Assembly (NCBI RefSeq): GCF_016401385.1
Contig: NZ_JAEACF010000001.1
Coordinates: forward strand, 1,798,001 to 1,862,000
Length of the DNA stretch: 64,000 nucleotides
Reading direction: 5' to 3'
Origin: Fictibacillus halophilus
GTDB taxonomy: Bacteria > Bacillota > Bacilli > Bacillales > Fictibacillaceae
Each line of letters starts with the position of its first letter. Positions within the stretch are counted from its first letter, which is position 1. A program made the position numbers and the translations under genes. The notes beneath the pieces are model-generated. The model was not told where the DNA came from and ran no database searches. It was given only the letters and a program-made list of their open reading frames with translations. Below are positions 2,207 to 55,850 of the stretch, piece by piece.

Positions 2207-2332
2207 TGATTTGCGCTACAGGATGCTCGCTTTCCGCGGGGTGTGCGGTGAGCCGCTTAGCGCTATGCGCTGTTAAGAGTCTCACCTGTCCCACTGATCC
2301 CGCAGGAGTCTCGCACCTTACGCTACAATCAA
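2207..2332. repeat. Structured intergenic repeat, copy 1 (126 bp)
   Basis: Starts TTGATTTGCGCTACAG and ends CTTACGCTACAATCAA, an imperfect terminal inverted repeat. Inside lie CTTTCCGCGGGG and CCCGCAGGAG, which can pair, and GGTGAG with CTCACC, so the whole unit can fold into a long multi-stem hairpin. It fills the gap between plsC and the S1 gene and has no ribosome-binding site or plausible ORF. Related copies are at 13073, 27613, 36445, 46226, 46513 and 55768. Confidence 0.85.
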
Positions 2333-2399
2333 TTTATCAATGATGCCTTTGAAAAAAAACTCAAAAGTAAATTCTTTAAAGATAAAAACAGAAATTCAG

Positions 2400-2981
2400 T
2401 TATTCATGCTCTTTTTTTAACTGAGCTATATGTTTCATTATAAGCTCTGTCGCTTCTTTTGCGGAAGCTTTTTGCTCCCGAAAATGTGTAAAGTCGATCG
2501 GTTTGCCGAATACGACTTTCAGTTTTTTTCCTTTTTGATATTCTCCAACGATCGCACATGGAACGATGTGAGCATCTGATTTAAGGGCAAAGAAGCCTGC
2601 TCCTGCTAGGCCTTCTCCGATTTCTCCTGTCTTTGAGCGGGTTCCTTCTGGAAACAACCCAACAACTTTTCCCTCTTTTAAAAGATTCATTCCTGTTTTT
2701 AAAGCTGTTTTGTCACTCATCCCACGTTTAACAGGAAACGCGTTGATCTTTGGGAGAATATGTTTTAAAACCGGTACAGAAAAGAGCTCTGCTTTAGCCA
2801 TAAAATGCACATCTCGTGGTGAAGCTACCCCAACAAGAGGGGGATCGTAGTTATGGATATGGTTGGTGCATAAAAGCACGCCACCAGTTTTCGGCATGTT
2901 TTCTGCTCCAACGATTTCTGGCTTATATGTTCCTTTGAAATACGTCCCACATAGCCATTTACCGAAAGAATAAAGCATCAT
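2400..2981 (-). CDS. plsC: 1-acyl-sn-glycerol-3-phosphate acyltransferase (PlsC)
   Basis: A 193-residue acyltransferase that would transfer an acyl chain to lysophosphatidic acid in membrane phospholipid synthesis. The HX4D catalytic motif is visible as NHIHNYD, and the glycerol-phosphate binding block as FPEGTRSKTGE. An upstream in-frame ATG (3005) would overlap cmk by 23 bp; the ATG at 2981 gives the usual N terminus of the family and follows AAAGGG just inside the end of cmk, so it is preferred. The cmk-plsC-S1 order suggests one transcript. Confidence 0.9.
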   Translation of the reverse strand: MMLYSFGKWLCGTYFKGTYKPEIVGAENMPKTGGVLLCTNHIHNYDPPLVGVASPRDVHFMAKAELFSVPVLKHILPKINAFPVKRGMSDKTALKTGMNLLKEGKVVGLFPEGTRSKTGEIGEGLAGAGFFALKSDAHIVPCAIVGEYQKGKKLKVVFGKPIDFTHFREQKASAKEATELIMKHIAQLKKEHE

Positions 2982-2982
2982 T

Positions 2983-3657
2983 TTACAAAGCCCTTTCTTT
3001 TGCATAATGAAGAATGCTTGAAACTACCTCGTCGATCGTCATACTTGTTGTGTCCAGTTCGATAGCATCTTCTGCTTTTCTTAATGGAGCTACTTCTCTT
3101 TCGCTGTCGCGCTTATCTCTTAACGCAATCTCACTTTTTAAAAGTTCAAAATCTGCTTCGAACCCTTTTGTTAAATTTTCTTCATAGCGTCTGCGAGCTC
3201 TTTCTTCTACCGAAGCGATCAAGAAAATTTTCAGCTCTGCGTTTGGCATAACATGTGTCCCAATATCACGGCCATCCATGACAACTCCCCCAGATTCAGC
3301 TAAGAGTTGTTGTCTTTTCACCATTTCAGTACGTACTTCTTGCTGTCTGGCAACAAAAGATACATTATTCGTTACTTCACTTGTTCTGATCTCTTCTGAG
3401 ACATCTTTTCCATCAAGAAGAACAGCTTGTCCTCCATCCGTGATCACTAATTTAATATCTGTATCATTCAAAACGATTTCAAGTTCTCGTCCATCATTAA
3501 GATCTGCTCCTTTTAAAAGAGCTTTATATGTTAATGCCCTATACATGGCACCCGTGTCAATATAAATGAATGAAAGACGTTCAGCTACTTGTTTGGCTAC
3601 CGTACTTTTTCCTGCTCCAGCCGGGCCATCAATGGCGATTGATAATAATTTTTTCAT
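2983..3657 (-). CDS. cmk: Cytidylate kinase
   Basis: A 224-residue nucleoside-monophosphate kinase that phosphorylates CMP and dCMP. The Walker A loop GPAGAGKST is at about residues 10-18; [15 protein letters not shown] and [14 protein letters not shown] are signature blocks of bacterial Cmk. A 14-codon longer frame exists, but the ATG at 3657 directly follows GGAGG and gives the standard N terminus [12 protein letters not shown]. It lies one base before the chosen plsC start. Confidence 0.97.
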
Positions 3658-3789
3658 GTTTCCTCCTACCCCATACCTATGACAATGCATACATAGCAAT
3701 AAAAAGCAGGTGAGTATCCCCTGCTTTTTTCTGTGTATAAATCTGAATTTATCAGACTTAATCTATATGTATATTACCATACATGGTGT

Positions 3790-3966
3790 TTAACGGTCTA
3801 TTGTTTCCAAAGTCGGTTGTTTGTCACTTTTGATGACTCCTTCGTAATAGATACTCTTATTTGTATATAACTTAAAGGAAGGAATCTCAAGTAGAAACTG
3901 CGCGGCAACCAGTAAAATAAAATGAACAACGGCAAGCTGAATTAATATTCGTTCAAATCGTTTCAT
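3790..3966 (-). CDS. ypfB: YpfB-like small membrane protein (DUF5359 type)
   Basis: A short gene of 58 codons, translation MKRFERILIQLAVVHFILL onward, with one N-terminal membrane helix (about residues 8-27) and a polar tail containing YYEGVIK. An AAGGTGG ribosome-binding site stands nine bases before the ATG. Start, length and position between ypfA and cmk match YpfB of B. subtilis as remembered. Function unknown. Confidence 0.85.
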   Translation of the reverse strand: MKRFERILIQLAVVHFILLVAAQFLLEIPSFKLYTNKSIYYEGVIKSDKQPTLETIDR

Positions 3967-4024
3967 GAATACGCCACCTTCTTTTCGGGAGTATTTTTCC
4001 CAATAAGAAGAAAACTATGCAATT

Positions 4025-4690
4025 CTATAGACTCACGCTCTCTTTCTTCTTCATAAGAAGCTGTTGTTCAAAGCAGAATCGGATGATATGCTGACGATCT
4101 CTTTGTGCGAGTTTCCCGAATTGAAGTGAAGCTTTTTGTCGCCCACCCGCTTGGCCGTCGAATACTCTTAAAACTGTGCAGTCTAGGTCCAAATACAGTT
4201 TTTCTCCAGATTGCATAGGAAAAACAACAAGACAGTTCAATTGATCTTCACTCTTGACGGAATGAACTATTGGAAGTGAAAGAAGCATCCCTCCTGCACT
4301 TAGATCGAGGATCACAGAGTTAAAAGGTGGATACGCATCATTTTGGTTAACAACCGATGTATCGATCATCGTTTCTACCCTTACATATTCTCTTCGCTGA
4401 ATCTTTTGTATCTCTTCTTCTTTTGGAGAGGTGATCATCAATACTGGAATGTTTTCGATCTTTCTTCCTAAAAGCTCGGTTCGAAACGTATAAACATTCC
4501 TCTCTTTATCCACAAAAGAAGCTTTAAACTGTGTTCCATCAAAAAAATATTCTGTGCGATTTGTTTTTTCGTTGCTGGGATAATCGATATAAAGATGATC
4601 CTCTTTTACATCAAACACTTTGCAGCGATATTTATCTTTTTTGTCGGAAAACAACGGTTCTAAATATAACGGTTCACCCACTGTTATCAT
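4025..4690 (-). CDS. ypfA: PilZ-domain c-di-GMP receptor YpfA (MotI/DgrA type)
   Basis: A 221-residue cytoplasmic protein with an N-terminal YcgR-like domain (about 5-85) and a C-terminal PilZ domain (about 95-210). The c-di-GMP motif RxxxR is present as RREYVR and the D/NxSxxG motif as DLSAGG. In B. subtilis YpfA (MotI, DgrA) binds c-di-GMP and acts on the flagellar motor; whether this strain is motile cannot be judged from this window. The ATG at 4690 follows GGGGGAAG; a TTG one codon upstream is a less likely start. Confidence 0.9.
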   Translation of the reverse strand: MITVGEPLYLEPLFSDKKDKYRCKVFDVKEDHLYIDYPSNEKTNRTEYFFDGTQFKASFVDKERNVYTFRTELLGRKIENIPVLMITSPKEEEIQKIQRREYVRVETMIDTSVVNQNDAYPPFNSVILDLSAGGMLLSLPIVHSVKSEDQLNCLVVFPMQSGEKLYLDLDCTVLRVFDGQAGGRQKASLQFGKLAQRDRQHIIRFCFEQQLLMKKKESVSL

Positions 4691-4754
4691 CAAACTTCCC
4701 CCAAATAATGCTTTCTTGTCTATCTACCTTATTATGACAGTTTCAAAATAAAAG

Positions 4755-4792
4755 AAAAAGCAAAATTTCAAGTTACGAAATTTTGCTTTTGC
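4755..4792 (-). terminator. Rho-independent terminator after ypfA-ypeB boundary
   Basis: AAAAGCAAAATTTC pairs with GAAATTTTGCTTTT around a 7-base loop. It sits between ypfA and ypeB; as it lies downstream of the ypeB stop, on the minus strand it ends the sleB-ypeB transcript, and the A/T-rich flanks could make it work both ways. Confidence 0.75.
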
Positions 4793-4830
4793 TTGTAATT
4801 TAATTCAGCACCTTCTAGAAAAGATTACTT

Positions 4831-6180
4831 TTAGATGTCGTTATAAGACGGCTCTGCTTCTTTAAGCTTTCTTACTTCTTCTTCATTTCCGTTCTCTGCG
4901 TTAATGAAGACGCGGAACGTATCGTTACCTAGAATTCCTAGGAATTCGTAACAATACACTTCTTCGTTTATATCGTTTCGAATCAATGCTTTACTTGTTT
5001 CTTTTACTTGGAACTTAGGGTTAAGGTTTGTTCTTGCTTCTTGTTCTGAGATCTTAAATGTAGGCGTTCTATCGTCTACGTGTGCTAGAAGGAAGTCTGT
5101 ACCTTCATACCCCATGATGTCTCCATTATCTAATGCTACTTTTACAGACACGGTCTCAGGATAGATCCTTACACCATCGTCTAGTCGAGCATAAGTGAAC
5201 ACCCCGATGTTATCGTATTGGTCACTTGTTACCATCTCCATTTGACTTTCCATATGTTTCTTTAGAAAGTCATCAGCTTGAAGCATCGCTTCATTCAGTG
5301 AGATTTTTGGTTTCCCGACGTTACGATCGTAAAGTACATACAGTGGATATCCCCCCTTTTTTGTAAGATCCATGTATGTTGTTCCTTTAGTATCTGGGTT
5401 ATATAGCGTTAGTGAGTAAGCGTCATACTTTGCATCTTTTCCAGTGCTTTCAACTGTAATCTTAACGTTTTTCTTTAATTGAAAAAAGTCGATCGCAATC
5501 TTTTTAGCTTCTTCTTTTGTAATCTTTTTACCTTTTAACTGACTGAGATCACGGTCTTTCATTTTCTCCATGTTGGATACTTCTGTTCCAAAGTCTACAT
5601 CTGAATACCCTTCGACCGATTTATCAACGGTCTTAAATCCGTCAATGATCGTGTTGTCTTCTGGCTGCTTGTTTGTAGCTAGAGCCATCTCGACATCCAT
5701 CCAACGCAAGTTGTTCTTTTGTGCTAATGATTCTGTTTTTCTTAACTCGTTTTGAATTTCTGTTGAATTTGCGTACAACTCTTTTAACGTATTGTATTCT
5801 TTATCACTAAGCGGATTCTTATCTAGATCACGAACTGCTGCTCGATAACTAAATTCACCCATCTTTGTTAAAAATTCTTCCGTTTTGTTAAATGGTAGAA
5901 GCGCTAAAGGCAGTTGGCCTACATCATTATGAGCCTCTGATGTTAGTCTCCAAACTTGAGCTAAAGCTGGAGATAGCTGATTTCGTGTATTCATAGCGAT
6001 CGTTTCGCCAATCTTGTCATGAAGAGAATCCATATGGAAGTTCAAATCATGAAAAGCCCGTTGATAGTTGTTTTCAGCTTGAAGAAGTACAGCATTTTTT
6101 TCTTGATGTTCACTGTAGCCCCAATAGCCTGTTCCTGCTACAGCAACGAACAACAGTACAATTAGGATTGTGCGTATCAT
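4831..6180 (-). CDS. ypeB: Germination protein YpeB
   Basis: A 449-residue spore protein needed for assembly and stability of the cortex-lytic enzyme SleB. It has an uncleaved N-terminal membrane anchor (about residues 3-21), a long helical N domain, and C-terminal PepSY-type repeats (about 215-285, 295-360 and 375-440) with the recurring pattern TKEEAKKIA, SLNEAMLQA and SEQEARTNL. It lies 17 bp after sleB and has its own AAGGGGTGA site. The two are expected to be co-expressed in the forespore. Confidence 0.96.
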   Translation of the reverse strand: MIRTILIVLLFVAVAGTGYWGYSEHQEKNAVLLQAENNYQRAFHDLNFHMDSLHDKIGETIAMNTRNQLSPALAQVWRLTSEAHNDVGQLPLALLPFNKTEEFLTKMGEFSYRAAVRDLDKNPLSDKEYNTLKELYANSTEIQNELRKTESLAQKNNLRWMDVEMALATNKQPEDNTIIDGFKTVDKSVEGYSDVDFGTEVSNMEKMKDRDLSQLKGKKITKEEAKKIAIDFFQLKKNVKITVESTGKDAKYDAYSLTLYNPDTKGTTYMDLTKKGGYPLYVLYDRNVGKPKISLNEAMLQADDFLKKHMESQMEMVTSDQYDNIGVFTYARLDDGVRIYPETVSVKVALDNGDIMGYEGTDFLLAHVDDRTPTFKISEQEARTNLNPKFQVKETSKALIRNDINEEVYCYEFLGILGNDTFRVFINAENGNEEEVRKLKEAEPSYNDI

Positions 6181-6197
6181 ATCAGTTCACCCCTTTA

Positions 6198-7079
6198 TTA
6201 GTTGCAGAAAATGTGCTTTCCGATTTTTTTGATTTGAGGACGAGACCATATCCAGCCTGATGTAGCTGTATCAGGGTTAAAATAATATTCTGCTTCACCT
6301 GTTGGATCCCAACCGTTCAGTGCGTCCATTACCGCTTTTTTTGCTTGCGCATTTGGAGTCAGATAGATCTGACCATCCGCAACTGCTGTAAATGCTCCTG
6401 GTTCGAAGATTACACCAGAAACTGTATTCGGGAATGAAGCACTATTTACTCGATTAATAATTACTGCTGCTACTGCGACTTGACCGATGTAAGGCTCACC
6501 ACGTGCTTCACCATATACAGCATTAGCCATCAAGTTTACATCGTTCTGCGAATAACCATTAGGGATGTTCTTTGCTGGTTTAACTTGAGCAGGCTTTGCT
6601 TTAGGCTGTCCCGCTCCTTTTGTGCCCTTTGCAGTTCCAGCTTTTGGCGTGCCGCTTTTTGCAGTGCCCCCTTTAGCTGCTCCACTCTTCGCACTTTTCT
6701 TCTCACCACCGTAATAAGAGAACTTCTTACCGGTATCAATCTGCTTATTTACCCAAGCTTTATCGTATTTAGAAGCTTTGGCTAACTTGTTTTTTGTAGT
6801 ACCGCCTGCTAAACCATCAATCGGTAGACCGAATTCATATTGGAAGTTTCGTAATGCCCAATACGTTCTCCATCCAAAAACACCATCGATGTTTCCCGTG
6901 TAAAAACCTAGATATTGAAGCCTCGACTGAAGTTCGACTACATCTTCACCTGTAGCTCCTACCTGTATGACTTGGTTTGAAAATGCTTGTGCATTGTTCT
7001 GACCAAATCCAGCTAATAGCCCAAAACAAAGGGCGATTGCAAAGAATGCTCCCTTTATGTAAGCTGAATTTCTTTTCAT
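6198..7079 (-). CDS. sleB: Spore cortex-lytic enzyme SleB
   Basis: A 293-residue secreted lytic transglycosylase that breaks down spore cortex during germination. A signal peptide (about 1-32) ends near AQA; a peptidoglycan-binding domain (about 40-95, LQYLGFYTGNIDGVFG) follows; then a low-complexity linker of Ala/Lys/Gly/Thr units (about 125-165); then the SleB hydrolase domain (about 170-293) with VYGEARGEP, whose Glu is the expected catalytic acid. The ATG at 7079 follows AGGAGG; an 11-codon longer frame has no ribosome site. A sigma G-type promoter lies at 7129-7158. Confidence 0.96.
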   Translation of the reverse strand: MKRNSAYIKGAFFAIALCFGLLAGFGQNNAQAFSNQVIQVGATGEDVVELQSRLQYLGFYTGNIDGVFGWRTYWALRNFQYEFGLPIDGLAGGTTKNKLAKASKYDKAWVNKQIDTGKKFSYYGGEKKSAKSGAAKGGTAKSGTPKAGTAKGTKGAGQPKAKPAQVKPAKNIPNGYSQNDVNLMANAVYGEARGEPYIGQVAVAAVIINRVNSASFPNTVSGVIFEPGAFTAVADGQIYLTPNAQAKKAVMDALNGWDPTGEAEYYFNPDTATSGWIWSRPQIKKIGKHIFCN

Positions 7080-7128
7080 GAGAAAGTAAGCCTCCTGTAA
7101 TTTAATCTCCATTTTCGTGTTATACAGA

Positions 7129-7158
7129 TATCATTTGTAATCTGTTTTTTTTTATTCA
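7129..7158 (-). promoter_or_regulatory. Sigma G-type promoter for sleB-ypeB
   Basis: On the minus strand TGAATA, 17 bases, then AATGATA, against the sigma G pattern TGAATA-N17/18-CATACTA. The -35 is a perfect match and it lies about 50 bp before the sleB start, as expected for a forespore gene. Confidence 0.6.
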
Positions 7159-7185
7159 GCTTTCAAAGACTCATGGTTCACAATA

Positions 7186-7208
7186 AAGAAAACTTGGCTG
7201 ACGCCAAG
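7186..7208 (-). terminator. Possible second terminator downstream of prsW
   Basis: CTTGGC-GTCA-GCCAAG, a perfect 6-bp stem followed by TTTTCTTT on the minus strand, lies between the prsW terminator and the sleB promoter. Confidence 0.5.
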
Positions 7209-7306
7209 CTCTTCAAGTCTGCCTTAGTTGCGCTTATACTATCTACCTTAACTTGTTGCCACGTCGAATGAAATCGTGCTAACAAGTTATACTTTCTGAT
7301 AGTCAA

Positions 7307-7337
7307 ATAAAAGAAGACCGGTTAAATTCCGGTCTTC
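7307..7337 (-). terminator. Rho-independent terminator of prsW
   Basis: A 9-bp stem, GAAGACCGG with CCGGTCTTC around TTAAATT, overlaps the prsW stop codon and is followed by TTTTATTT on the minus strand. Confidence 0.85.
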
Positions 7338-8002
7338 GCATCTGGATTTGAATATGGAGTTAGAGTAGTATTAGCAATTCTTACTTTCCGAAGAGCAAAC
7401 CACCATAAGAAGATCATAAAAGGAAACATATAAAAGAAAATATATTTTGTACTGGATAACAACAAGAAGTTAAACGTACCGTGTAACACAATCGGTAATA
7501 GGAGTGAGAGGGTAAGATACATCTTCTTCTTTCTTCCTGTCGAGAATTTCCCTTTTCCTAAATAAAAACCCATGATCACACCAAACAAAGCATGACCACT
7601 TACAGGCAGAAGGGCTCGAACTAATGCTTCTTTAATTCCGAACGTATACAGATAAAAGATGTTTTCTAAAGACGCAAATCCTAATGACAATGCAGTGGCA
7701 TATACGATTCCATCATACGGTTCATTGAACTCTTCATGAAGATATGCTCCATAGAACACTAAGAACCATTTGAAGAACTCTTCTAATGTGCCACTGATAA
7801 AAAATGCCTCAACAAAAGAAGGTACGTTCAATTCTTCGGTAATTCCAAACTGAATAACCATAATCGGAAAGACGAGAAGAACGCCAAATATATATACTTT
7901 GACCACCAATGACAATGGTTCGGTCTCATATTTATCTTTTAGATAAAAAAAGGATAATAGAGCAATAGCCGGAGCCACCGCTGCAGAAATTACAGCTAGC
8001 AT
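7322..8002 (-). CDS. prsW: Intramembrane metalloprotease PrsW
   Basis: A 226-residue polytopic membrane protein with about seven helices, matching PrsW, the site-1 protease that cleaves the anti-sigma factor RsiW in B. subtilis under envelope stress. The putative catalytic signature EEFFKW is at about residues 86-91, with ENIFYLY and SGHALFGVIMG further on. The upstream frame has an ATG 13 codons earlier, but MLAVISAAVAPAIAL from 8002 matches the family start and follows AGAGGCAGG. rsiW itself is not in this window. Confidence 0.93.
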   Translation of the reverse strand: MLAVISAAVAPAIALLSFFYLKDKYETEPLSLVVKVYIFGVLLVFPIMVIQFGITEELNVPSFVEAFFISGTLEEFFKWFLVFYGAYLHEEFNEPYDGIVYATALSLGFASLENIFYLYTFGIKEALVRALLPVSGHALFGVIMGFYLGKGKFSTGRKKKMYLTLSLLLPIVLHGTFNFLLLSSTKYIFFYMFPFMIFLWWFALRKVRIANTTLTPYSNPDAKTGI

Positions 8003-8093
8003 GTCCTGCCTCTTTTCTACTGTTTTTTTATATCGTAACATGATATTTTAAGAAGTGGAATAGCGAACACGAAGAATAAGGAGGGCGGTAATC

Positions 8094-9062: not shown

Positions 9063-9286
9063 TGGATATTTTCATCAATTGATTGAATGATTGACCATGA
9101 ATGATAAAGACTTAGTTAGTAGACATGGGAATCGGACATGTGATTTGAAAATTACGAAGATAATTTTAAAATATTTTTGATAATTAGATGAGTTTATCAA
9201 TTAATTTGACGAGTTCAACGCATATATCCACGAGTCGACAAAAACAGACAATTTAAACTGATTTTATTCTTTAATCAGAGATTCAC

Positions 9287-9325
9287 GAAAAAAACCGATA
9301 ACTTAAAAAGGTTATCGGTTTTTTT
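9287..9325. terminator. Bidirectional terminator between ansA and bdr
   Basis: AAAACCGATAAC and GTTATCGGTTTT form a 12-bp stem flanked by A and T runs on the two sides. It overlaps the bdr 3' end. The remaining stretch from 9063 to 9286 shows no gene or clear signal. Confidence 0.85.
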
Positions 9326-10313: not shown

Positions 10314-10351
10314 CACTCCAAAAAAACACAGTTATTCTTCCTTAGCATACC

Positions 10352-10388: not shown

Positions 10389-10406
10389 TATGAGTTTGCA
10401 AAAATT

Positions 10407-12863: not shown

Positions 12864-13072
12864 CTTAATGGTCACTCCTAGCCCAAAAGTTTATGTATAT
12901 ATTATATTCCCTGCCGTCATATCGGTTCAGTGGATGTGAAAAATATTAATAATCATAACACGTTTTGTCTCTAAATTCACAATGATATATACATGACATT
13001 TTCGTTTATGTTCATTCTTTATGCTGTTTGAATTTTCAAGACTGTTCTCGTTTAAATTATAGCGATTTGAGA

Positions 13073-13148
13073 GTGGTTAATTTACGCTCCAGATTGTTAA
13101 CTTTCCATGGGGAGACCGGTTAGTCGACAACCTTGCGCTCCAACCAAC
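13073..13148. repeat. Structured intergenic repeat, copy 2 (decayed, 76 bp)
   Basis: GTGGTTAATTTACGCTCCAG, CTTTCCATGGGGAGACCGGT and CCTTGCGCTCCAACCAAC align with the ends and left arm of the intact copy at 46226 in the same order. Pairing between the termini is poorer and the right arm is missing. Confidence 0.65.
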
Positions 13149-13208
13149 TTGCATGAGAAGAGAAACGAAAACTCCGAAGTCATCAATATTTTTAAAAAAC
13201 CTTCTCAC

Positions 13209-24552: not shown

Positions 24553-24840
24553 CTAAAAAAATCCCCTTCAGCTACGAAGGAGATTAATAGTATACAGGCA
24601 GAAAACAGCAACCGGCCCCGGTACTGTTAAACACCCCCCTATCCTCGTAGGTCATGTCATGTAACAAACAGGCAGGTCTCCTGGCTCTTGATCATCGTCT
24701 CCTAACGCCTTCCCGTTTTCACAGTGGCGATATTTTAGGATTCTCACAATTACAGTGGCGGGACCGCAACGGAATCTAACCGTTTTCCCTATTAAGCTCG
24801 TCCTATAAAGGACTGCACCTGTTTAACACTTATGAAATTT
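24553..24840 (-). ncRNA. Cobalamin riboswitch
   Basis: On the minus strand the region begins near ACAGGTGCAGTCCTTTATAG and contains the conserved core GCGGTCCCGCCACTGT and, at 24672-24687, the B12 box AGCCAGGAGACCTGCC. Downstream, AATCTCCTTC and GAAGGGGATT (24559-24584) form an intrinsic terminator with seven T. CTACGAGGA (24642-24650) can pair with TCCTTCGTAG (24572-24581), an antiterminator. This predicts transcription shut-off when cobalamin is bound. It controls the DUF4430 and ECF genes. Confidence 0.95.
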
Positions 24841-27461: not shown

Positions 27462-27612
27462 ATTCAATCCTCCACTTAAAATCAGTTAAAAAAGATTTTT
27501 TCCTGTCTCTATCATACATGAAACCAAGTACACTAAACAAACCGGACATGTTGTCTATCTTAATTCTTTAATGTAGGGCTGAGTTCGTATAGATTGTTGC
27601 TCTTTGACAGTA

Positions 27613-27956
27613 GTTGATTTCCGTTACAGATGCTCGCTTTCAAACCGGGCGTGCGGTGTTCGAAGAAGTATGTGTGCTCCTGCGTCTACAAGAAAATCCT
27701 ACCGAAGCGAGCTTCCTCGTCACATGCCTTACGAGAAGAATTTGCAGAGCGGCTGGCACGCTACGCGCCGTTAGGAGTCTCCACCTGTCTAGATGCAGCG
27801 GCTAGCCCCTCGAGGTCAAAAGTTGAATGGTCAAGAAGGCAATGTGCGCCTTCATAGTCCATTCACCTTTTGCTTGTCGGGGCTAAACGAGCCACTCCTT
27901 CTTTTCAAACTAACCGCTCGTCCCGTAGGGGTTTCGCATCTTACACTTCAATCAAC
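27613..27956. repeat. Structured intergenic repeat, copy 3 (long form, 344 bp)
   Basis: Outer ends GTTGATTTCCGTTACAG and CTTACACTTCAATCAAC match the family. Between them is an extra block: TGCTCCTGCGTCTACAAG, TTCCTCGTCACATGCCTT, then AGCCCC-TCGAGG and a later CTTGTCGGGGCT flanking about 60 bp. The same block occurs in reverse in copy 6 (46513-46850). It fills most of the 610-bp gap between resD and resC; the ORFs running through it are not supported by ribosome sites. Confidence 0.85.
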
Positions 27957-28032
27957 TTGGCAATGAAGTTAAAAAAAGCATTAAAAGCAACAATTCATAT
28001 AGGTCTTATGTATTGATTATGTTCGTCTCTTA

Positions 28033-35249: not shown

Positions 35250-36326
35250 CTACTTCCTCCATTCCACTAAAAGAAGTTCAGAAGAAAAACCTGGTCCTAA
35301 AGCAGCCATCACACCTAGATCTCCCTCTTCTTTTTCTGTTTGCATGAAATTTTTTAAGACATAGAAAACAGTCGCAGATGACATATTTCCATTTTCTCTT
35401 AATACTTCTCTTGAGATATCGGTTTTGGATAACGGAATTCCTAGGGCATCCACGTATGCTTGTAAAACTTTCTTTCCGCCAGGATGAGCGATGAAGTGTT
35501 TGATCTGTTCTCCGACAAGCTGATTTCTATGTAAGAACTCATCTACGTTCGGTTTGAGCCACGTCCGAATGACATTAGGAATATCTCTAGAGAAAACAAC
35601 ATATAAACCTGTGTCCTTTACTTCCCACCCCATCACATCTTCAGAATGCGGCTTCAATGTGGACATCGTATCTTTTATGTAAGGAGATACTTCTGATGGT
35701 TTTGCTGCGTCGGACTCATCACCGCATATTAGTGCGCACGCAACTCCATCTGCAAACAAAGATGTACCTACTAAATTGCTCTTTGAAAGATCTTCGTGCT
35801 GAAATGTTAGTGAACAAAGTTCTACACTTAATACGAGCACGTTTGATTTTGGATATGCTTTACAATAATCGTGTGCTCTTGAAAAACCTGATGCACCACC
35901 AGCACATCCTAATCCCCAAATTGGAATCCTTTTTGTATGTGAAGAAAACGGGAGGATGTTCATGATTCTAGCTTCAATACTTGGAGTTGATAGACCTGAA
36001 CTCGAGATGAAGAAAATGGCATCAATATCTTCATATGAAACGTTAAGACTTCGATCAGACATAACTTTCTCGATACATTCTGCCCCTAAATTAGTTGCAA
36101 AGTCTATATATAAATCATTTTTCTCTTGAAAACTTCTTTTTTCCTTGAACCACTCTATAGGCATCGCGAAATAGCGTGACTCGATCTCACCATTCTGAAA
36201 TACTTTGAGCAAACGCTCGATATCTGAGAACGCGTCTTGAAATAGGTTCCTTGCAAATTCCATTGTTTGATTCTGGGAAAGTTGATGAGGGGGATTTATC
36301 GTTTCTACTGCTGCTATTCTTGGCAA
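35250..36326 (-). CDS. bpsA: Type III polyketide synthase BpsA
   Basis: A 358-residue chalcone synthase-like enzyme that would extend long-chain acyl-CoA with malonyl-CoA to alkylpyrones. The catalytic triad is visible: Cys in GLGCAGGASG, His in AHPGGKK and Asn in ENGNMSSAT. The frame stays open upstream to 36500, through a copy of the intergenic repeat, but that extension is basic and unlike the family. TTG at 36326 follows AAGGAGA and gives the expected N terminus MPRIAAVETINPPHQL; ATG 36350 is a weaker choice. Confidence 0.93.
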   Translation of the reverse strand: MPRIAAVETINPPHQLSQNQTMEFARNLFQDAFSDIERLLKVFQNGEIESRYFAMPIEWFKEKRSFQEKNDLYIDFATNLGAECIEKVMSDRSLNVSYEDIDAIFFISSSGLSTPSIEARIMNILPFSSHTKRIPIWGLGCAGGASGFSRAHDYCKAYPKSNVLVLSVELCSLTFQHEDLSKSNLVGTSLFADGVACALICGDESDAAKPSEVSPYIKDTMSTLKPHSEDVMGWEVKDTGLYVVFSRDIPNVIRTWLKPNVDEFLHRNQLVGEQIKHFIAHPGGKKVLQAYVDALGIPLSKTDISREVLRENGNMSSATVFYVLKNFMQTEKEEGDLGVMAALGPGFSSELLLVEWRK

Positions 36327-36444
36327 TTGATCTCTCTCCTTCGGCTGCATATCCTTTTTTAGTAATTTACCCTTAAACTGCCTTTTAAAACGAAGACTTA
36401 AAAGATTCGTTTGTTTTTTGAGTGAACGTCGCAGTAGTGGAAGA

Positions 36445-36501
36445 GTTGATTTCCGTTCCAGCTTAGGAGTCAGCCACCTTACGCCTGACACTTCCATCAA
36501 C
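36445..36501. repeat. Structured intergenic repeat, copy 4 (short, 57 bp)
   Basis: GTTGATTTCCGTTCCAG at the left and CATCAAC at the right, with TTAGGAGTCAGCCACCTTACG between. It is reduced to the two ends of the family, lacking the CGCGGGG arms. It lies between bpsA and the 123-aa gene. Confidence 0.75.
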
Positions 36502-36512
36502 TTGCCTAGGAA

Positions 36513-36547
36513 GAAAAAAAAACAGCCTAAATGAATAAAGGCTGTTT
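36513..36547 (-). terminator. Terminator after the scpA-scpB-36546 gene set
   Basis: AAACAGCC and GGCTGTTT around a 12-base loop, overlapping the stop codon of the 123-aa gene and followed by nine T on the minus strand. Confidence 0.85.
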
Positions 36548-40884: not shown

Positions 40885-41110
40885 CAAAAGACAGCCGCAA
40901 CTAAGGCAGGCTGTCATAACCGTACCCTCATGTCGGAATAGCTCTCCACTACAGTTGTAGTGACAGTCCGTTGCTTGTTCAGCAGCGGCCCAGCATAAAA
41001 AGAGATGGAGCTCTTTCTACACTTCGGCAAATTGACCTTTCAACATATTTCATCGTCATCCACAAACTCCATATGCTACTCATTCGTTTTGCGCCTCTAC
41101 CTCATATGAG
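40885..41110 (-). ncRNA. Lysine riboswitch (L box)
   Basis: On the minus strand it opens AGGTAGAGGCGCAAAACG, then GAGTAGC, GAAAGGTC, GCCGAAGTG, GCTGGGCCGCTGC, ACGGACTGTCAC and TGTAGTGGAGAGCT, the conserved segments of the five-way lysine aptamer in order. It ends in a terminator, GACAGCC with GGCTGTC (40890-40915), then TTTTGT. It predicts premature termination of lysA when lysine is plentiful. Confidence 0.95.
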
Positions 41111-46155: not shown

Positions 46156-46225
46156 CTCACATGTAACAGCATCCAAAAACTACCACAAAAAAACGTTTTG
46201 GGGTTCATTGATGTATTTGAAAGTG

Positions 46226-46352
46226 GTTGATCTCCGTTTCAGGTGATCCCTTTCCGCGGGGCGACCGGTGAGCCACTTGCCGCTTCGCGCCTCTAAGTGT
46301 CTCACCTGACCGCTCGTCCCGCAGGAGTCTCTCACCTTACACTACAATCAAC
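46226..46352. repeat. Structured intergenic repeat, copy 5 (127 bp)
   Basis: GTTGATCTCCGTTTCAG to CTTACACTACAATCAAC. The inner arms CTTTCCGCGGGGCGACCGGT and CCGCTCGTCCCGCAGGAG, and GGTGAGCC with GTCTCACC, are complementary. One of two copies in the 826-bp gap between spoVAA and sigF; the 160 bp between them holds nothing recognisable. Confidence 0.85.
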
Positions 46353-46512
46353 CTAATCAGTGAAGTTTATGGGTAACGCTGAAGACTGTTTGAACTTTTG
46401 ATTGTGTGTCATAAGTATGTTTCAATAACTTGAACAGCTTCTTGATAAAACATCTGAATAAAGGGCTAAGCGATTTACGTTTAGATTTTTTCTTTTTATA
46501 CTTCCTATGCAA

Positions 46513-46850
46513 GTTGATTGTAGCGTAAGGTTGCCTGCCTGCCACATGAGGAGCTTCTCGCAAGGCATGCGACGAGGAAATTCACTTCGTTAGCATAAAC
46601 TTGTAGACGCAGGAGCAGAGAGACAACCTTTAAGCGGTCAGGTGGAGACTCCTAACGGCGCAAAGCGGCAGTCCGAAAAGTGGAAGTGACTCGTTCAGCC
46701 CCGACAAGCAAAAGGGAAATGGGCGAGGACGGCGCACTTTGCTCATCACAGACCGTTTACCTTTTGACCTCGAGGGGCTAGTCACTGCAACTAGACAGGA
46801 GGCTCACCGTTCGCCCCATGGAAAGTGTGCAACCTGGAGCGTAAATCAAC
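46513..46850. repeat. Structured intergenic repeat, copy 6 (long form, inverted, 338 bp)
   Basis: Runs from GTTGATTGTAGCGTAAGG to GCGTAAATCAAC, opposite in direction to copies 3 and 5. It carries the same inner block as copy 3, seen as AAGGCATGCGACGAGGAA, CTTGTAGACGCAGGAGCA and AGCCCCGACAAGCAAAAG with CTTTTGACCTCGAGGGGCT. With copy 5 it forms an inverted pair. Confidence 0.85.
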
Positions 46851-46894
46851 TTTCTATCAAGACCCGCATCTATGCGAAAGCATAAATAGAACAA

Positions 46895-47681: not shown

Positions 47682-47687
47682 ACTCCC

Positions 47688-48128: not shown

Positions 48129-48130
48129 TT

Positions 48131-48481: not shown

Positions 48482-48515
48482 GCTATCCTCTCCTTCTTTT
48501 TTGGATAACGTGAAT

Positions 48516-48542
48516 TTTCTATAAAAAAAGACGAATTCCTTC
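48516..48542 (-). promoter_or_regulatory. Sigma H-type promoter of spoIIA
   Basis: GAAGGAATT, 11 bases, ATAGAAA on the minus strand, against RnAGGAwWW-N11/12-RnnGAAT: one mismatch in all. It lies 35 bp before the spoIIAA start. Confidence 0.65.
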
Positions 48543-48596
48543 ACTCTTGACAAAACTAGTGGGAATTCGCCTATAACTGTCAAGAAACCATTCTAG

Positions 48597-49769: not shown

Positions 49770-50016
49770 ACAGTTCCCTCCATTCATATAGTCTTATTTT
49801 TTCCATAATTTTTCACTTTATACCGGATCTTCCACCTAAAATCGCTTAGTAAATTGACTGACTAGATGCTTCACTTCCAATGGCTACTTCTAAAAAGGCC
49901 TATGAATATTCAATAATCTAAAAATATAGACTAAACTCTTTTTATTTGATATTCTTCATTATAATTATGGATAAATATGTTAAATGATTTCAGATGCAGC
50001 AGGGGGATGTACGTTA

Positions 50017-50832
50017 ATGCCTACACTAAAAATGAATGAATTCGTGTTAAATTATGAGGTTAGAGGAAGTGGTAAACCCATTGTATTCTTACATGGATTA
50101 GGAGCAAGCTGGAGAATGTGGGAGCCCCAGATTGAAACTTTTTCTAAAAAGTATCAAATGATTATGGTTGATTTAAGAGGTCATGGAGGCTCGACAAGAT
50201 CATTTCCTAATCATGAATTTTCTGCAAAAGTAATGTCAGAAGATATTAAACAGTTTTTAGATGCGTTGAATATAAAAAAAACATATATGGTTGGACTATC
50301 TTATGGCTCTGTTGTCGCACAATTATTTGCTTGTAAATATTCAAGTTACCTTGAAAAACTTATTTTATCAAATGGTTATAGTGAAATTCCTAGCAAAGTC
50401 TCTGGCTGGGTTTTGAGTCTATCCAATTTTATATTTAAGAGACTTTCTTATAAAACAATTATCAATCTTATTTTAAAGACTTATAAAGATGATGAATTTA
50501 CCAAGAAGATCTTGCGGGATTCTTTTACTTTTGACAAAGACATGTTTTTGTTTGCAAAAAATTCTGTATTCCCAACCCATACTAATGAACTTCATGGTAT
50601 AAGCGTTCCTACTTTAGTATTGGGAGGCGATAAAAAAGTCATGGGGGTAGATGAGCGCAAAGCTTCAGAAATCTTGTTCAATCATATTCCATTCTCAACC
50701 CTAGCTTTATTTAAAAATGCCTTTGATCCCCTTAGTACAATGAAAGTAAGTACATTTAATGAAATGATTCTTTGTTTTTTGGAAGATAAAAATTTCAAGG
50801 TTTATGATGATGTTACGATCTACACTAAGTAA
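50017..50832 (+). CDS. Alpha/beta hydrolase-fold protein without catalytic histidine
   Basis: A 271-residue alpha/beta hydrolase. Oxyanion block HGLGASW (about 26-32), nucleophile elbow GLSYG with Ser95, and likely acid Asp205 in LGGDKK are present. At the usual C-terminal GH position the sequence reads NAFDPLSTMKVSTFN, with Asp237 instead of His, so the triad is incomplete. The gene is noticeably AT-rich and Lys/Phe/Ile-rich compared with its neighbours and lies on the opposite strand between dacF and pdp. ATG 50017 follows GGGGGA. Confidence 0.8.
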   Translation: MPTLKMNEFVLNYEVRGSGKPIVFLHGLGASWRMWEPQIETFSKKYQMIMVDLRGHGGSTRSFPNHEFSAKVMSEDIKQFLDALNIKKTYMVGLSYGSVVAQLFACKYSSYLEKLILSNGYSEIPSKVSGWVLSLSNFIFKRLSYKTIINLILKTYKDDEFTKKILRDSFTFDKDMFLFAKNSVFPTHTNELHGISVPTLVLGGDKKVMGVDERKASEILFNHIPFSTLALFKNAFDPLSTMKVSTFNEMILCFLEDKNFKVYDDVTIYTK

Positions 50833-50865
50833 AATTCCTAATATTACTAGCACCTCTATGAAAAT

Positions 50866-50908
50866 TAAAAAAGATGCCCCAAATATTTAAATATTTGAGG
50901 CATCTTTT
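50866..50908. terminator. Bidirectional terminator, hydrolase and pdp
   Basis: AAAAGATGCCCCAAATATT and AATATTTGAGGCATCTTTT form a long stem with one mismatch, between two converging genes. Confidence 0.9.
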
Positions 50909-50916
50909 CGTTTTTA

Positions 50917-52221
50917 TTATTTTTTAATCTCTTTATAAACAAGCGGTGGAGCTTCTACAGCATCCTTCGAGATCGTATAAGCTTCACGGATTTTCTTCTT
51001 CACTTCGTCTACATTTTCAGTGTTGCTGTAGATGGTTACAAGTGAATCACCTCTTGAGACTTTATCTCCGACTTTTTTGTTAAGCATCAAACCAACCGCT
51101 AGATCGATCTGAGATTCTTTCGTTGCGCGTCCTGCACCTAAGATCATTGCCGCAGTACCAATCTCATCAGCAACAATTTCAGAAACATAGCCTTCTTCTT
51201 CTGCCGTTAGCTCAAAAGTATGTGCAGCTTGTGGCATTCTTTCTGGATGATCCACTACAGATTCGTCTCCACCTTGAGCTTTCAAGAACACTTTTAACGT
51301 TTCAAGCGCTTTTCCTGAAGCGATGACTTCTTTTAACATCTCACGTGCTTGTTCAAGTGAATCTGCTTTTTTCGCAAGATACACCATGTGAGAACCTAAT
51401 GTTAAGCAAAGTTCTTCAAGGTCTTTTGGTCCTTTACCATTAAGCGTATCGATGGCTTCTTTGATCTCTAAAGCATTACCGATCGCAAGACCTAAAGGCT
51501 GGCTCATATCAGAGATAACAGCCATCGTGTTACGTCCTACCGCATTTCCTATTTTCACCATCGCGTTTGCTAGTTCTTCTGCTTCTTCTGGTGTTTTCAT
51601 GAATGCTCCTGCACCTGTTTTTACATCAAGTACGATTGCATCAGCACCAGCTGCGATCTTTTTACTCATGATCGAGCTCGCGATCAATGGGATTGAGTTA
51701 ACCGTTGCCGTTACGTCACGAAGACCATACAGCTTTTTATCAGCTGGTGTCAGGTTTCCGCTTTGTCCGATAACAGCAAGCTTATTTTTATTTACAAGGT
51801 CAATAAATTCTTGGTTGTCAATTTCAACGTGGAATCCAGGAACAGCTTCCAATTTGTCGATCGTTCCACCTGTATGACCTAGTCCTCTTCCGGACATTTT
51901 TGCTACTGGTACATCAAGCGCAGCAACTAGAGGAGCTAGTACAAGAGTCGTTGTATCACCAACACCACCTGTTGAGTGCTTGTCTACTTTAATTCCTTCG
52001 ATCGCAGAAAGATCGATTTGATCACCTGACTCTACCATCGCCATTGTTAAATGGGCACGTTCTTCAGTAGTCATGTCTTTGAAATATACAGCCATTGCAA
52101 ATGCAGACATTTGATAGTCAGGAATTTCACCATTTGTATAGTTTTGAATAATAAAATCGATCTCAGCTTTTGTAAGTTCTTTTCCATCACGCTTTTTTTG
52201 AATCAAGTCAACCATTCTCAT
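50917..52221 (-). CDS. pdp: Pyrimidine-nucleoside phosphorylase
   Basis: A 434-residue enzyme that splits uridine, thymidine and deoxyuridine with phosphate. Phosphate-site block [18 protein letters not shown] and signature [17 protein letters not shown] are clear. With punA and drm it feeds ribose and deoxyribose 1-phosphates into central metabolism. Confidence 0.95.
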
Positions 52222-52314
52222 GTTAATAGCACCACTTTCTTATCACTTTACATATGAACATATTTTTTTAGAAGTTAAATATTAAATCCTTCGTAATTCA
52301 CTTTGGACTCTCTG

Positions 52315-53127
52315 TTAAATTTCCTTGACGATTCCTTTAACTAAAGAAAGGAAATTGGATTTTACCATCTCAGTTGTTTCCATTACTTCATCATGTGTTA
52401 ACGGCTGATCTAAAATACCTGCTGCCATATTAGAAATACATGAAATTCCAAGTACTTGCATACCAGCATGACGTGCGATGATAACTTCTGGAACCGTAGA
52501 CATTCCAACTGCATCCGCTCCCCATACACGAAGCATTCTAACTTCTGCAGGCGTTTCGTATGAAGGACCTGTGTTTCCAGCGTAAACACCTTCTTTTAAT
52601 GAGATGTTCAAATCTTTTGCTACACCACGTGCAACGTCTTGCAGAGACAACGTGTACGCTTCACTCATATCTGGAAAACGAACGCCAAACGAATCATCAT
52701 TACCACCGATTAACGGGTTGTTACCAAAGTTATTGATATGATCTGTGATCAACATAAGATCTCCAGCTTCAAAATCCTTGTTAACGCCACCAGCAGCATT
52801 CGTTACAACAATTGTTTCTACACCGATCAATTTCATCACACGAACGGGGAACGTTACTTTTTCCATCGAGTATCCTTCGTAATAATGAAAACGCCCTTGC
52901 ATCGCGACTACTTGTTTTCCAGCAAGCTCGCCAATCACAAGCTGTCCAGCGTGACCTTCTACAGTCGAAACAGGAAATTCAGGAATATCTGAGTATGGAA
53001 TAATAACTGGGTTTTGAATTTCTTCAGCAAGGATTCCTAGACCAGAGCCTAAGATCAAACCTATTTTTGGAACAGAAGTAAGTTTTGATTGAATAAAATC
53101 AGCAGATGTCTGTAGTTGTTTAGACAT
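52315..53127 (-). CDS. punA: Purine-nucleoside phosphorylase (guanosine/inosine type)
   Basis: A 270-residue trimeric-type PNP (PupG). Signatures: GLGILAEEI, phosphate-binding VTNAAGGVN and GPSYETPAEVRMLR with the base-binding Glu. Acts on inosine, guanosine and their deoxy forms. AAGGGGG precedes its ATG; 26 bp separate it from drm. Confidence 0.95.
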   Translation of the reverse strand: MSKQLQTSADFIQSKLTSVPKIGLILGSGLGILAEEIQNPVIIPYSDIPEFPVSTVEGHAGQLVIGELAGKQVVAMQGRFHYYEGYSMEKVTFPVRVMKLIGVETIVVTNAAGGVNKDFEAGDLMLITDHINNFGNNPLIGGNDDSFGVRFPDMSEAYTLSLQDVARGVAKDLNISLKEGVYAGNTGPSYETPAEVRMLRVWGADAVGMSTVPEVIIARHAGMQVLGISCISNMAAGILDQPLTHDEVMETTEMVKSNFLSLVKGIVKEI

Positions 53128-53153
53128 GTTTATTTTCCCCCTTAAACTAAACC

Positions 53154-54338
53154 TTAAAGTTGATTTAAAAAGCTTTGTCCGATACTAGGTTTTTTCACAT
53201 CATATATTTCAGCGATCGTTGCACCAATATCTGCGAACGTGTTACCTACGTTCAGTTCTTTACCTTTTTCAATCCCTTTGTAATATACCATCAATGGAAC
53301 ATATTCACGTGTATGATCTGTTCCATGATGAACAGGATCGTTTCCATGGTCAGCCGTGATGATAAGCAGATCGTCTTCTCGAAGCTTTTCTAGAACTTCT
53401 GGCAATCGAGCATCAAATTCTTCTAATGCTTGACCATATCCTTTTGGATCTCTTCTATGTCCGAATAATGCATCAAAATCAACCAAGTTTAAAAAGTTAA
53501 GACCTGTAAAATCTTCATCCATAGACTTCACCAGCTTGTCCATTCCATCCATGTTCGATTTCGTGCGAATGGCTTTCGTTACACCTTCACCGTCAAAGAT
53601 ATCGGATATTTTTCCTAGTGCGATGCTATCATATCCTGCGTCTTCTAACTCGTTCATAACCGTTCTTCCGAATGGTTTTAATGCATAATCGTGACGGTTA
53701 GACGTTCTTTCAAATGCTCCAGTCTCACCTTTAAACGGACGAGCAATGATTCTTCCTAACATATACTTGCCATCACGTGTCATTTCTCTTGCTGTTTCAC
53801 AGATCTCATAAAGTTCTTCTAATGGAACAACATCTTCATGAGCAGCAATCTGAAGCACAGAGTCAGCAGACGTGTAAACGATCAACTTACCTGTTTTCAC
53901 ATGTTCTTCTCCAAGCTCAGAAATAATTTCTGTACCTGAAGCTGCTTTGTTACCTAGAATTCCTCTGCCCCATTTTTCGGTAAGCATATCGATCAACTCA
54001 TCAGGAAAGCCATCTGGAAACGTTTGAAAAGGTTCCTTGATATGTAGGCCCATGATTTCCCAGTGTCCTGTCATCGTATCTTTCCCGTTTGAAAGTTCAG
54101 GCAGTTTCGCATAATGAGCAATTGGATTCGTTGCTTTCTGAATACCTTCCATCGTCGAATCAATATTTCCAAGTCCAAGCTTCTCCATATTCGGAACGTT
54201 TAGACCGTTCATCTCACGTGCGATATGCCCTAGCGTGTGAGCTCCTTTATCTCCAAATTTTTCTGCATCTGGTGCTTCACCAATTCCTACAGAATCCATT
54301 ACGACTAAAAAAGTTCTCTTAAAACGTGATTGTTTCAT
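53154..54338 (-). CDS. drm: Phosphopentomutase
   Basis: A 394-residue alkaline-phosphatase-superfamily mutase converting (deoxy)ribose 1-phosphate to the 5-phosphate. Metal-site blocks [21 protein letters not shown] and HTREYVP; nucleophile Thr in [12 protein letters not shown] 54338 follows AGGAGG. First gene of drm-punA-pdp. Confidence 0.96.
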
Positions 54339-54451
54339 TTTGTCCTCCTGAAATTCGTACATTCACTTTATTTACTATTTCCTTATAGCAGAAACAACAA
54401 ACAAATCCTTGGTGATGTCAGAAGTCTGACATCTTATTGAAAAAAGAAAGC

Positions 54452-55342
54452 TCACGCCCTCGGATGGAAGGCGGAGTATACATCTTTTAATCTTGTTTTT
54501 GTTACATGGGTATAAATTTGTGTTGTGGAAATATCAGCATGTCCTAACATCTCTTGCACTGCACGCAAATCCGCACCGTTTTCTAATAGATGAGTAGCGA
54601 ACGAATGTCGAAGAGTATGCGGTGTAAGTTCCTTCTCAATATGAGCTTTTCTTGCTAGTTGCTTTAATATCTTCCAAAATCCCTGTCGAGATAAACGATT
54701 TCCGTGATGGTTCAAAAAGAGTGCATCCGTTTTTTTGCTTTTTAACATGATTGAACGTCCGTTTTGTAAATAGCGTTCAATTGCCGTTTGAGCCATCTTT
54801 CCTAAAGGAATGATCCTTTCTTTATTCCCTTTACCTATACAGCGGATGAATCCCATTTCTAGGTGTACATCCCCTATATTAAGCTGAACAAGTTCTGAAA
54901 CTCGAATGCCAGTTGCATACAACAGCTCGAGCATACCTTTGTCTCTTTGAGAAAATGGATCGTTACCAGCAGGTGTATCTAATAGTGCTTCAACCTCTTC
55001 AGTGGATAATACTTTCGGAAGCTTCCGCTCTGTTTTAGGTGTTTCAATATGTACAGAAGGATCTTGACTAGAGACCTTCTCTCTTAGAAGAAACTGGTGA
55101 AAAGACCGAATAGACGCAATGTTGCGAGCTAGCGTCGTGGAAGCCTTACCATTCTCTTTTAAAAATAATAGATATCCCATTATATGATTACGGTCAATCT
55201 CATGAATGGTTTCAAGAGATTCGACTTTATCGAGATATCGTACATATTGAGTTAAATCTCTCTTATAGGAGTCGATTGTGTTCTTAGAGAGGGCTCGTTC
55301 TACAATAATGTATTGAAGAAAATCCTGAACATGTTCGTTCAC
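54452..55342 (-). CDS. xerD: Tyrosine recombinase XerD
   Basis: A 296-residue recombinase that resolves chromosome dimers with XerC at dif. N-terminal SAM-like core-binding domain (about 1-85); catalytic Arg in ATGIRVSEL, HxxR as HTLRHSFA, His in LGHADISTT and Tyr in QIYTHV. GTG start behind AGGAGGGG. Chromosomal context (fur-yqzK-xerD-drm) identifies XerD rather than a mobile-element integrase. Confidence 0.95.
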
Positions 55343-55353
55343 TCTACCCCTCC

Positions 55354-55581
55354 TTACTCACCCGTCTGATAAAAATAGAAAAGCCTTTTTACTGCGTTTG
55401 AATCTTTATCAGAACTCAAGTTAAATACTTTAACAGCTTTACCTTTAGGTTCGTCATATCTATGATAGTTTTCATATTCTTGATTGATCCAAAGCAAACC
55501 GAAATAAAACACGAGCGTGCAAATTGAAAAAGCAAAGAACACCTTTGTTGTATTCCAAACGATTTTCATCCAGGAAATCAT
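55354..55581 (-). CDS. yqzK: YqzK-like small membrane protein
   Basis: A 75-residue protein with one membrane helix (about 9-29) and an external tail containing [15 protein letters not shown]. Several in-frame starts exist; ATG 55581 is best spaced from AGGGGTGG. Name from its conserved place between fur and xerD; function unknown. Confidence 0.75.
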
Positions 55582-55767
55582 CATGTCCACCCCTGTCCTC
55601 ATATAGTACAGGTTATGCCCACATGTTCCCCGATTATACATAAAAGTTGAATCTACACATCATACGTTACCCGATTCTTGGGACTTTGTAAATATTCTTT
55701 GCCTTATATTTTATAAATACATTTTAAATAAAGTCTGTTTTCGAAAACAATGGTGTTTTTGGAAGTA

Positions 55768-55850
55768 GTTGCTCTCCCTTACAGGTGTATCGCTTTCCAC
55801 GGGGCGACATGTGAGCCCCGTGGAGTCTCACACCTTACACTCCGATCAAC
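55768..55850. repeat. Structured intergenic repeat, copy 7 (short, 83 bp)
   Basis: Starts GTTGCTCTCCCTTACAGG and ends CCTTACACTCCGATCAAC. Inner CTTTCCACGGGGCGACATGTGAG can fold with CCCCGTGGAG and CTCAC. It is flanked by a 9-bp perfect inverted repeat, AACAATGGT (55746-55754) and ACCATTGTT (55853-55861), so the hairpin extends past the family ends. Confidence 0.85.

Follow-up and report, generated by a model that had tools for sequence, protein, structure and literature searches.

The seven structured intergenic repeats present in a 64,000-nt stretch of the Fictibacillus halophilus genome (positions 1,798,001 to 1,862,000 of contig NZ_JAEACF010000001.1; this entire stretch is referred to as the window) very probably belong, as judged from sequence comparisons, to a family of non-autonomous miniature inverted-repeat transposable elements (MITEs) that an IS1595-family transposase mobilises in trans. 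This assignment is made because the repeats have recognisable ends flanked by 8-bp duplications, because at orthologous positions some species have an insertion and others lack one, and because insertion sequences (ISs) with the same ends were found in related bacteria. The repeats carry no transposase gene, are short, and occur in many copies, and their membership among MITEs with IS1595 ends is well supported.

An earlier note, which had called attention to the seven copies from the sequence of the window alone, took GTTGATT and CAATCAAC for the ends of the element. These motifs bound only an inner core, a 127-nt imperfect hairpin running from GTTGATTTCCG to CAATCAAC, while conserved sequence continues beyond them in copies from other genera, and the true ends lie further out. 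They are of two types: type A begins with GGCTGTTTTCG, in most cases some 35-60 bp away from the core, and has GGCTGTTTTCGTAAACTTTGTTGCT as its left terminal repeat; type B begins with GGCTCTGTTAAA, about 20 bp outside the core on the left and about 40 bp on the right, and has GGCTCTGTTAAAC as its left terminal repeat. A complete short copy measures 182-294 bp and is composed of an 8-bp duplication, the left terminal repeat, a spacer, the core, a second spacer, the right terminal repeat and the other 8-bp duplication, in that order. Both ends could be recognised in 57 of the 169 copies with enough flanking sequence (46 of type A and 11 of type B), and these are flanked by AT-rich 8-bp duplications with a mean of 6.23 matches out of 8, versus 3.54 when the flanks are re-paired at random; the highest of 1000 shuffles reached 4.30, 20 of the duplications are perfect and 31 match at 7 or more of the 8 positions. 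The same core is found behind both end types, core identity being 0.811 within type A, 0.841 within type B and 0.817 between them, and for 5 of the 11 type-B elements the nearest core is that of a type-A element.

When plasmids were searched for the type-A end, an IS with type-A ends and broken transposase frames was found on a plasmid of Priestia flexa. The DDE_Tnp_IS1595 domain was detected in 11 of the 60 genomes searched, over the curated cut-off in eight, and twelve IS1595 loci were read, consisting of 11 genome loci and the Priestia flexa plasmid IS. Six of the twelve have both ends, which are of type A in L266 and L259 (7/8 duplicated) and in L270 (6/8), and of type B in L265 and L272 (8/8 duplicated) and in L269 (7/8); one end was recognised in four (L267, L268, L271 and L275) and none in two (L273 and L274). 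NCBIfam assigns the transposases of L266 (341 aa), L268 and L269 to IS1595 with 196-204 bits, and each of them also exceeds the cut-off of Pfam DDE_Tnp_IS1595. In L272 (719-2479), an IS1595-ended element with the duplication TAATTTTT on both sides, a 162-aa protein is encoded beside a transposase fragment, and by eye it reads like a GNAT acetyltransferase. Mobilisation by an ISL3-family transposase instead, brought up by the resemblance of the ends (ISL3 elements have 8-bp AT-rich duplications and GGCT ends), is highly improbable and was rejected, as DDE_Tnp_ISL3 was found in 0 of the 18 genomes of the genus and the transposases encoded by elements that share these ends are of the IS1595 family.

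The search for empty orthologous sites, proposed in the earlier note, was likewise successful. Among the 18 genomes of the genus, the plsC gap (window copy 2207) is filled in 8, measures only about 30-45 bp as far as a shared motif in 9, and is unrelated in one; the sigF gap (46226 and 46513) holds copies in 9 genomes, a remnant in one and none in 8; the ccsA-like gap (27613) is filled in 7, holds partial copies in 2 and is empty in 9; and the fur-like gap (55768) has a copy or remnant near the site in 4, a long form in one and none in 13, all counts and gene names being read by eye from the sequences rather than from base-level alignments, with L283 resting on blast rows. At the sigF locus of genome G007 (L292), a short tandem array with a unit like ATTAGACTCAATTCCTCAAC is present in the gap downstream of sigF.

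Several observations weigh against this explanation. The duplication test is silent on the 112 of 169 copies that failed the two-end filter, and among 47 copies of the host genome only 16 have both type-A ends at a significant level, with at least one in 35 and neither in 12. Since the gaps were not aligned to the base, individual empty ones may have arisen by deletion. One flank at plsC also changes no faster (0.119) than the core (0.126). Furthermore, no match to the IS1595 transposase was found in the host genome, and the two of the 18 genus genomes that have a match each show one recognisable type-B end, whereas type A prevails among those MITEs of the genus in which both ends are kept. 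A partner transposase in the same genome is, nevertheless, not a requirement for old copies. An IS1595-type transposase, arriving and leaving on ISs or plasmids, would move the MITEs in trans, and within the genus the ends would often decay while the core stays similar through exchange between copies, selection on structure, or both. The idea of a mobile element moved by a host enzyme, put forward in the earlier note, is retained in its first half, the miniature mobile element, and not in its second, since the likely enzyme is no housekeeping one: the ends match the IS1595 transposase family, with the sparse distribution in the genus just described.

We estimated the size of the family with a covariance model, R1, built from 31 host-genome copies, including window copies 46226 (as L001) and 2207, which match the model by construction as its members. 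The search of the full genome, also proposed earlier, revealed further copies: in the host genome (3.92 Mb) there are at least 149 R1 matches, far more than chance would give, 104 of them over 100 bits, the total being a lower bound because the best 150 of 1035 first-look candidates were scored. With the 46226 copy as a blastn query, at least 44 matches were obtained in the host genome (best 40 of 158 candidates scored), the 40 best, query included, being 82-100% identical over at least 127 of the 145 query bases, except for one (111). Extrapolation from 22 copies in 20 stretches of 20 kb on contig C1 (400 kb in all, with a threshold of 35 bits and with eight opposite-strand shadows removed from 30 matches) yields about 216 copies in the host genome. 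Among the matches listed, copies over 60 bits are unevenly spread on contig C1, with one in 200-800 kb, none in 2.8-3.0 Mb and 30 in 3.0-3.38 Mb; the sign of the GC skew switches at 1.37-1.52 Mb on this contig, and therefore the two replichores of the host appear to differ strongly in copy number.

Beyond the host, matches at 1e-5 were found in 50 of the 60 genomes searched (host counted), comprising all 18 of the genus (host counted), 12 of 16 in the rest of the family and 20 of 26 in the rest of the order, and in a phylum sample at 1e-6 three of 299 genomes matched: the host, a second member of its order, and a member of its class. Named genomes scanned with a pattern yielded at least 120 stretches, 80 of which were listed; the matches listed include records of Fictibacillus, Cytobacillus, Peribacillus, Metabacillus, Mesobacillus, Neobacillus, Alkalihalobacillus and Bacillus, and the best-scoring named copies among them are from Fictibacillus. 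The family is also carried by records titled "Pseudomonas sp. ISL-84" (L145, L147, L152, L164 and L169), which are probably misnamed or contaminated. A distant version of the core, GTTGAGT..ACTCAAC, occurs in the 2.6-Mb genome G228 from another order of the class (L324, L327 and L328); inspection by eye of about 100 bp on each side found no type-A or type-B ends, and a third end type may exist. Core matches on plasmids number seven, and two of them lie under an annotated "hypothetical protein", lending some support to the earlier remark that such repeats give spurious open reading frames (ORFs); plasmids searched with the long form gave no match, and neither did a phage collection of 50,697 records. 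Over the gathering score, Rfam 15 identified in the window only a lysine riboswitch (40931-41107, minus strand) and a cobalamin riboswitch (24654-24837, minus strand), neither on a repeat, and at four copy-bearing loci nothing was found on the copies up to E 1. A literature search over titles and abstract starts of open-licence papers, with most subscription papers outside its scope, returned no description of the repeat family, and the five papers obtained with the sequence itself were unrelated by title.

Compensatory changes in the stems, another point raised earlier, were found as well, and none of the outcomes named in the earlier note as refuting it was obtained. In 97 distinct copies, standard pairs occupy 95.2% of pair cells versus 37.6-48.2% when the pairing is slid, and double-sided change is seen in 25 of 40 pairs (272 such cells versus 72 shuffled), figures that are inflated because this structure guided the alignment and orthologs occur among its rows; the first set of 31 copies, aligned independently, kept double changes in 13 of the 40 pairs. 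The majority fraction is 0.84 in unpaired core columns, 0.88 in paired ones and 0.67 in flanking ones. Of the structured RNA envisaged in the earlier note, it is the structure that has been borne out.

Would such a structure act in RNA? The core may be functional as an mRNA 3′-end or processing hairpin, with processing or protection of 3′ ends being reported for certain other bacterial MITEs, and with the transposon ends as its vehicle, and copies may be kept as useful, which is compatible with a MITE origin; we regard this as possible rather than likely, its weight being set by analogy with reports on Correia, ERIC and bcr3. It is favoured by covariation together with conserved internal loops, by the presence of one core behind two end types, by a rate of change below that of fourfold sites at two loci (see below), and by a tendency in strand. 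Among copies between tandem genes, with 14 orthologous rows from two loci removed from the orientation and wobble tallies, 61 are antisense (the GTTGATTGNAG.. strand being co-transcribed) and 40 sense (p 0.046), and the wobbles fit the transcribed strand in 48 cases versus 32 (p 0.09). The orientation bias, however, comes from the named genomes (antisense to sense 35:14), as opposed to 26:26 in the genus set and 19:21 in the host genome, and the wobbles of sense copies are unbiased (12 G-U and 13 A-C, with 19 and 36 in antisense copies), the whole set having 58 G-U and 75 A-C (p 0.17). When orthologous rows are counted, there are 70 antisense and 42 sense copies, with G-U/A-C wobbles of 22/42 and 14/14, respectively, so that their removal weakens both leanings. 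Overall, these comparisons lean towards action of the core as an RNA of the reverse strand and do not establish it. The lack of a fixed gene neighbourhood, of an Rfam match on the repeat, and of a copy in the gaps of many sister species also speaks against a role in RNA. In the host genome, 21 copies are sense, 19 antisense, 11 convergent, 6 divergent and one is at an edge, with background gaps by length being 63% tandem, 20% divergent and 17% convergent, and no clear preference of the copies for a gene context was found there. A site acting at the DNA level, such as a nucleoid or gyrase site resembling BIME, would agree with this orientation-neutral placement, with the absence of a G-U preference and with copy counts that differ strongly between chromosome regions, but it is an unlikely explanation in view of the mobile ends and the empty gaps, and an uneven spread is equally expected of insertions; the nucleoid sites proposed in the earlier note received no direct support.

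The size range of the seven copies, 57-344 bp, results from internal deletion and from modules nested in the core. Long forms contain module 1, counted at 26 loci in 25 elements (one has two copies; three weaker matches listed without loci were left out), and at all 26 it lies beside core sequence and in core orientation. In clear cases this module of about 120 nt follows core position 85 or 55, both at CTG, and the core resumes at 83 or 53-54, so that up to 3 bp (CTG) are present twice; several other left core pieces are too diverged for the junction to be placed. Module 2, matched over about 65-100 nt, replaces core positions 31-56 in one copy and lies between about 91 and 111 in others, taking the place of part of either arm. 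The earlier expectation that inner parts come and go while the ends persist was confirmed at orthologous sites: these hold different module sets in different species, so that modules apparently entered or left the elements in place, for which exchange between copies is the simplest explanation.

Exchange bears on how the core has stayed similar. Orthologous cores differ by 0.085 per site at sigF and by 0.126 at plsC (8 genomes each), whereas the fourfold sites of the adjacent gene give 0.358 and 0.379, respectively. From this comparison at least two sigF-locus copies with partial cores (L283 and L292) were dropped, which favours conservation. The flanks have diverged by 0.350 and 0.173 (sigF) and by 0.201 and 0.119 (plsC) and contain far more indels than does the core; the slower plsC flank is as slow in substitutions as the core itself, perhaps because it holds sequence conserved in its own right. 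Mean identity is 91.3% and 87.2% among orthologous cores and 83.7% among host paralogs. For 14 non-own cores, the nearest host copy is the ortholog in nine (two tied with a paralog) and another copy in five, and because of this split the rate and nearest-copy data do not separate selection from gene conversion. We place most weight, though still tentatively, on a selfish MITE without host function, whose core similarity would be kept by gene conversion and hairpin-templated repair, again compatibly with a MITE origin; the exchange suggested by differing module sets and by the five cores nearer to another host copy fits this explanation, while the nine nearest to their orthologs do not, and conserved bulges and internal loops seem unlike the outcome of palindrome-perfecting repair. 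A role in RNA comes second.

A more far-reaching proposal, which we consider rather doubtful, is that the core is a functional structured element spread through the order behind at least two IS1595 end types, kept by selection after decay of the ends, and serving as a landing platform for CTG modules with 3-bp duplication. If true, it would represent a transposon-delivered modular regulatory hairpin common to many Bacillus relatives. The slow orthologous core makes it testable whether MITE hairpins are kept for an action in RNA or just seem conserved through mutual correction of the copies, a question of long standing. For the MITE family as such, the present analysis provides the true boundaries and the likely mobilising enzyme family for a highly repeated sequence of a large bacterial group, one that sometimes causes false gene calls.

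All seven window copies reported earlier are real, and their features are compiled in the table. Five match R1 with 166-31 bits, while the long copies 27613 and 46513, which as wholes score at most 15 bits, are cores with two modules each and align with one another in inverted orientation in blocks of 73, 71 and 52 nt at 81-87% identity. The inner arm given earlier, CTTTCCGCGGGG, is present literally in 2207 and 46226; it appears as CTTTCCATGGGG in 13073 and 46513 and as CTTTCCACGGGG in 55768, is altered in 27613, and is missing from 36445. Nor do all copies fold into long hairpins as had been thought, 13073 and 36445 being internally deleted and having no single dominant hairpin. With regard to the main ORFs their intergenic position holds in all but one case: copy 36445-36501 covers the initial codons of ORF 35250-36500, whose TTG start was probably called too far upstream; plus-strand ORFs running over the 13073 and 55768 copies are probably spurious. 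In the end search, copy 1 has a weaker match in its left arm (p 0.05), and the right ends of copies 2 and 7 gave p 0.06 and 0.815; no recognisable type-A ends were found for copy 4 (p 0.375 and 0.5), no recognisable ends for copy 6 (p 0.25 and 0.09), and no recognisable right end for copy 5 (p 0.38).

Table. Repeat copies, their modules and their outer ends in the window (positions count from the first base of the window)
Feature	Position	Strand	Evidence
Copy 1, complete short core, 127 nt	2207..2333	+	R1 152.7 bits (match 2195-2346), model member; gap filled in 8/18 genus genomes
Copy 1, right arm and type-A relic	2334..2379	+	Local alignment to right-end consensus, 0/200 shuffles as good; outermost bases unaligned, end extrapolated
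Copy 2, left type-A end relic (CTGTTCTCG...)	13040..13072	+	End search p 0.005
Copy 2, internally deleted core	13073..13129	+	R1 38.7 bits (match 13066-13161)
Copy 3, left type-A end (GGCTGAGTTCGTATAGATTGTTGCT...)	27577..27612	+	0/200 shuffles as good
Copy 3, long form, modules 2 and 1 inside core	27613..27956	+	Block alignment and folding; different module sets at the orthologous site of other species
Copy 3, module 2, replacing core positions 31-56	27659..27757	+	L368
Copy 3, module 1, after core position 85 (CTG)	27789..27910	+	L368
Copy 3, right arm with relic of the right type-A end	27957..28011	+	0/200 shuffles as good; end extrapolated
Copy 4, outer part of the core, shortest derivative at 57 bp	36445..36501	+	R1 30.8 bits (match 36435-36514)
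Copy 5, left type-A end relic	46191..46225	+	0/200 shuffles as good
Copy 5, complete short core	46226..46352	+	R1 166.3 bits (match 46216-46366), model member; orthologous cores compared
Copy 6, reversed long form, modules 1 and 2 inside core	46513..46850	-	Block alignment, module placement
Copy 6, module 2, between core positions 91 and 111	46554..46617	-	L392
Copy 6, module 1, after core position 55 (CTG)	46675..46794	-	L392
Copy 7, left type-A end relic (CTGTTTTCGAAAACAATGGTG...)	55733..55767	+	0/200 shuffles as good
Copy 7, 83-nt core, apical part shortened	55768..55850	+	R1 68.2 bits (match 55758-55863)

Comparison with known systems places the repeats closest in their ends to the IS1595 family, for which one account gives 8-bp target duplications (PMC8101967). 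They share with the IS1595 elements of relatives these duplications and the same end sequences (starting GGC), and differ from them in lacking a transposase and in having a non-coding hairpin core, to which no match was found in the 12 IS loci. REP/BIME repeats are 20-40 bp palindromes linked to the RAYT tyrosine transposase, and the size and ends of the present family do not fit this description. ERIC, Correia and BOX-type repeats are likewise small and hairpin-bearing, and ERIC inserts and the modularity of BOX are reminiscent of the nested modules; those repeats, however, occur in other hosts and have other ends, whereas the present family has IS1595 ends, with two end types on one core. 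Cleavage of Correia elements by RNase III and unmasking of an RNase E site by ERIC are mentioned in one source (PMC10969869). The bcr1-bcr3 repeats of the Bacillus cereus group are, like ours, intergenic and MITE-like repeats in Bacillaceae, and bcr1 is reportedly specific to that group, as the title of one paper has it. The present family may differ from them in host range, no B. cereus-group record being among the seven plasmids with core matches. According to one report, genes co-transcribed with bcr3 have a longer mRNA half-life, and bcr repeats are often transcribed (PMC3446304). Another structured intergenic family of a Bacillaceae genome, Bhal-1 of Bacillus halodurans, is described as 74 bp long with 36 copies (PMC2267715); compared by description, it may be an already described relative. 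Unusual features of the family are a covarying 127-nt core, two end types on one core, nested modules, and a core that at two loci changes more slowly than fourfold sites, although one plsC flank is equally slow.

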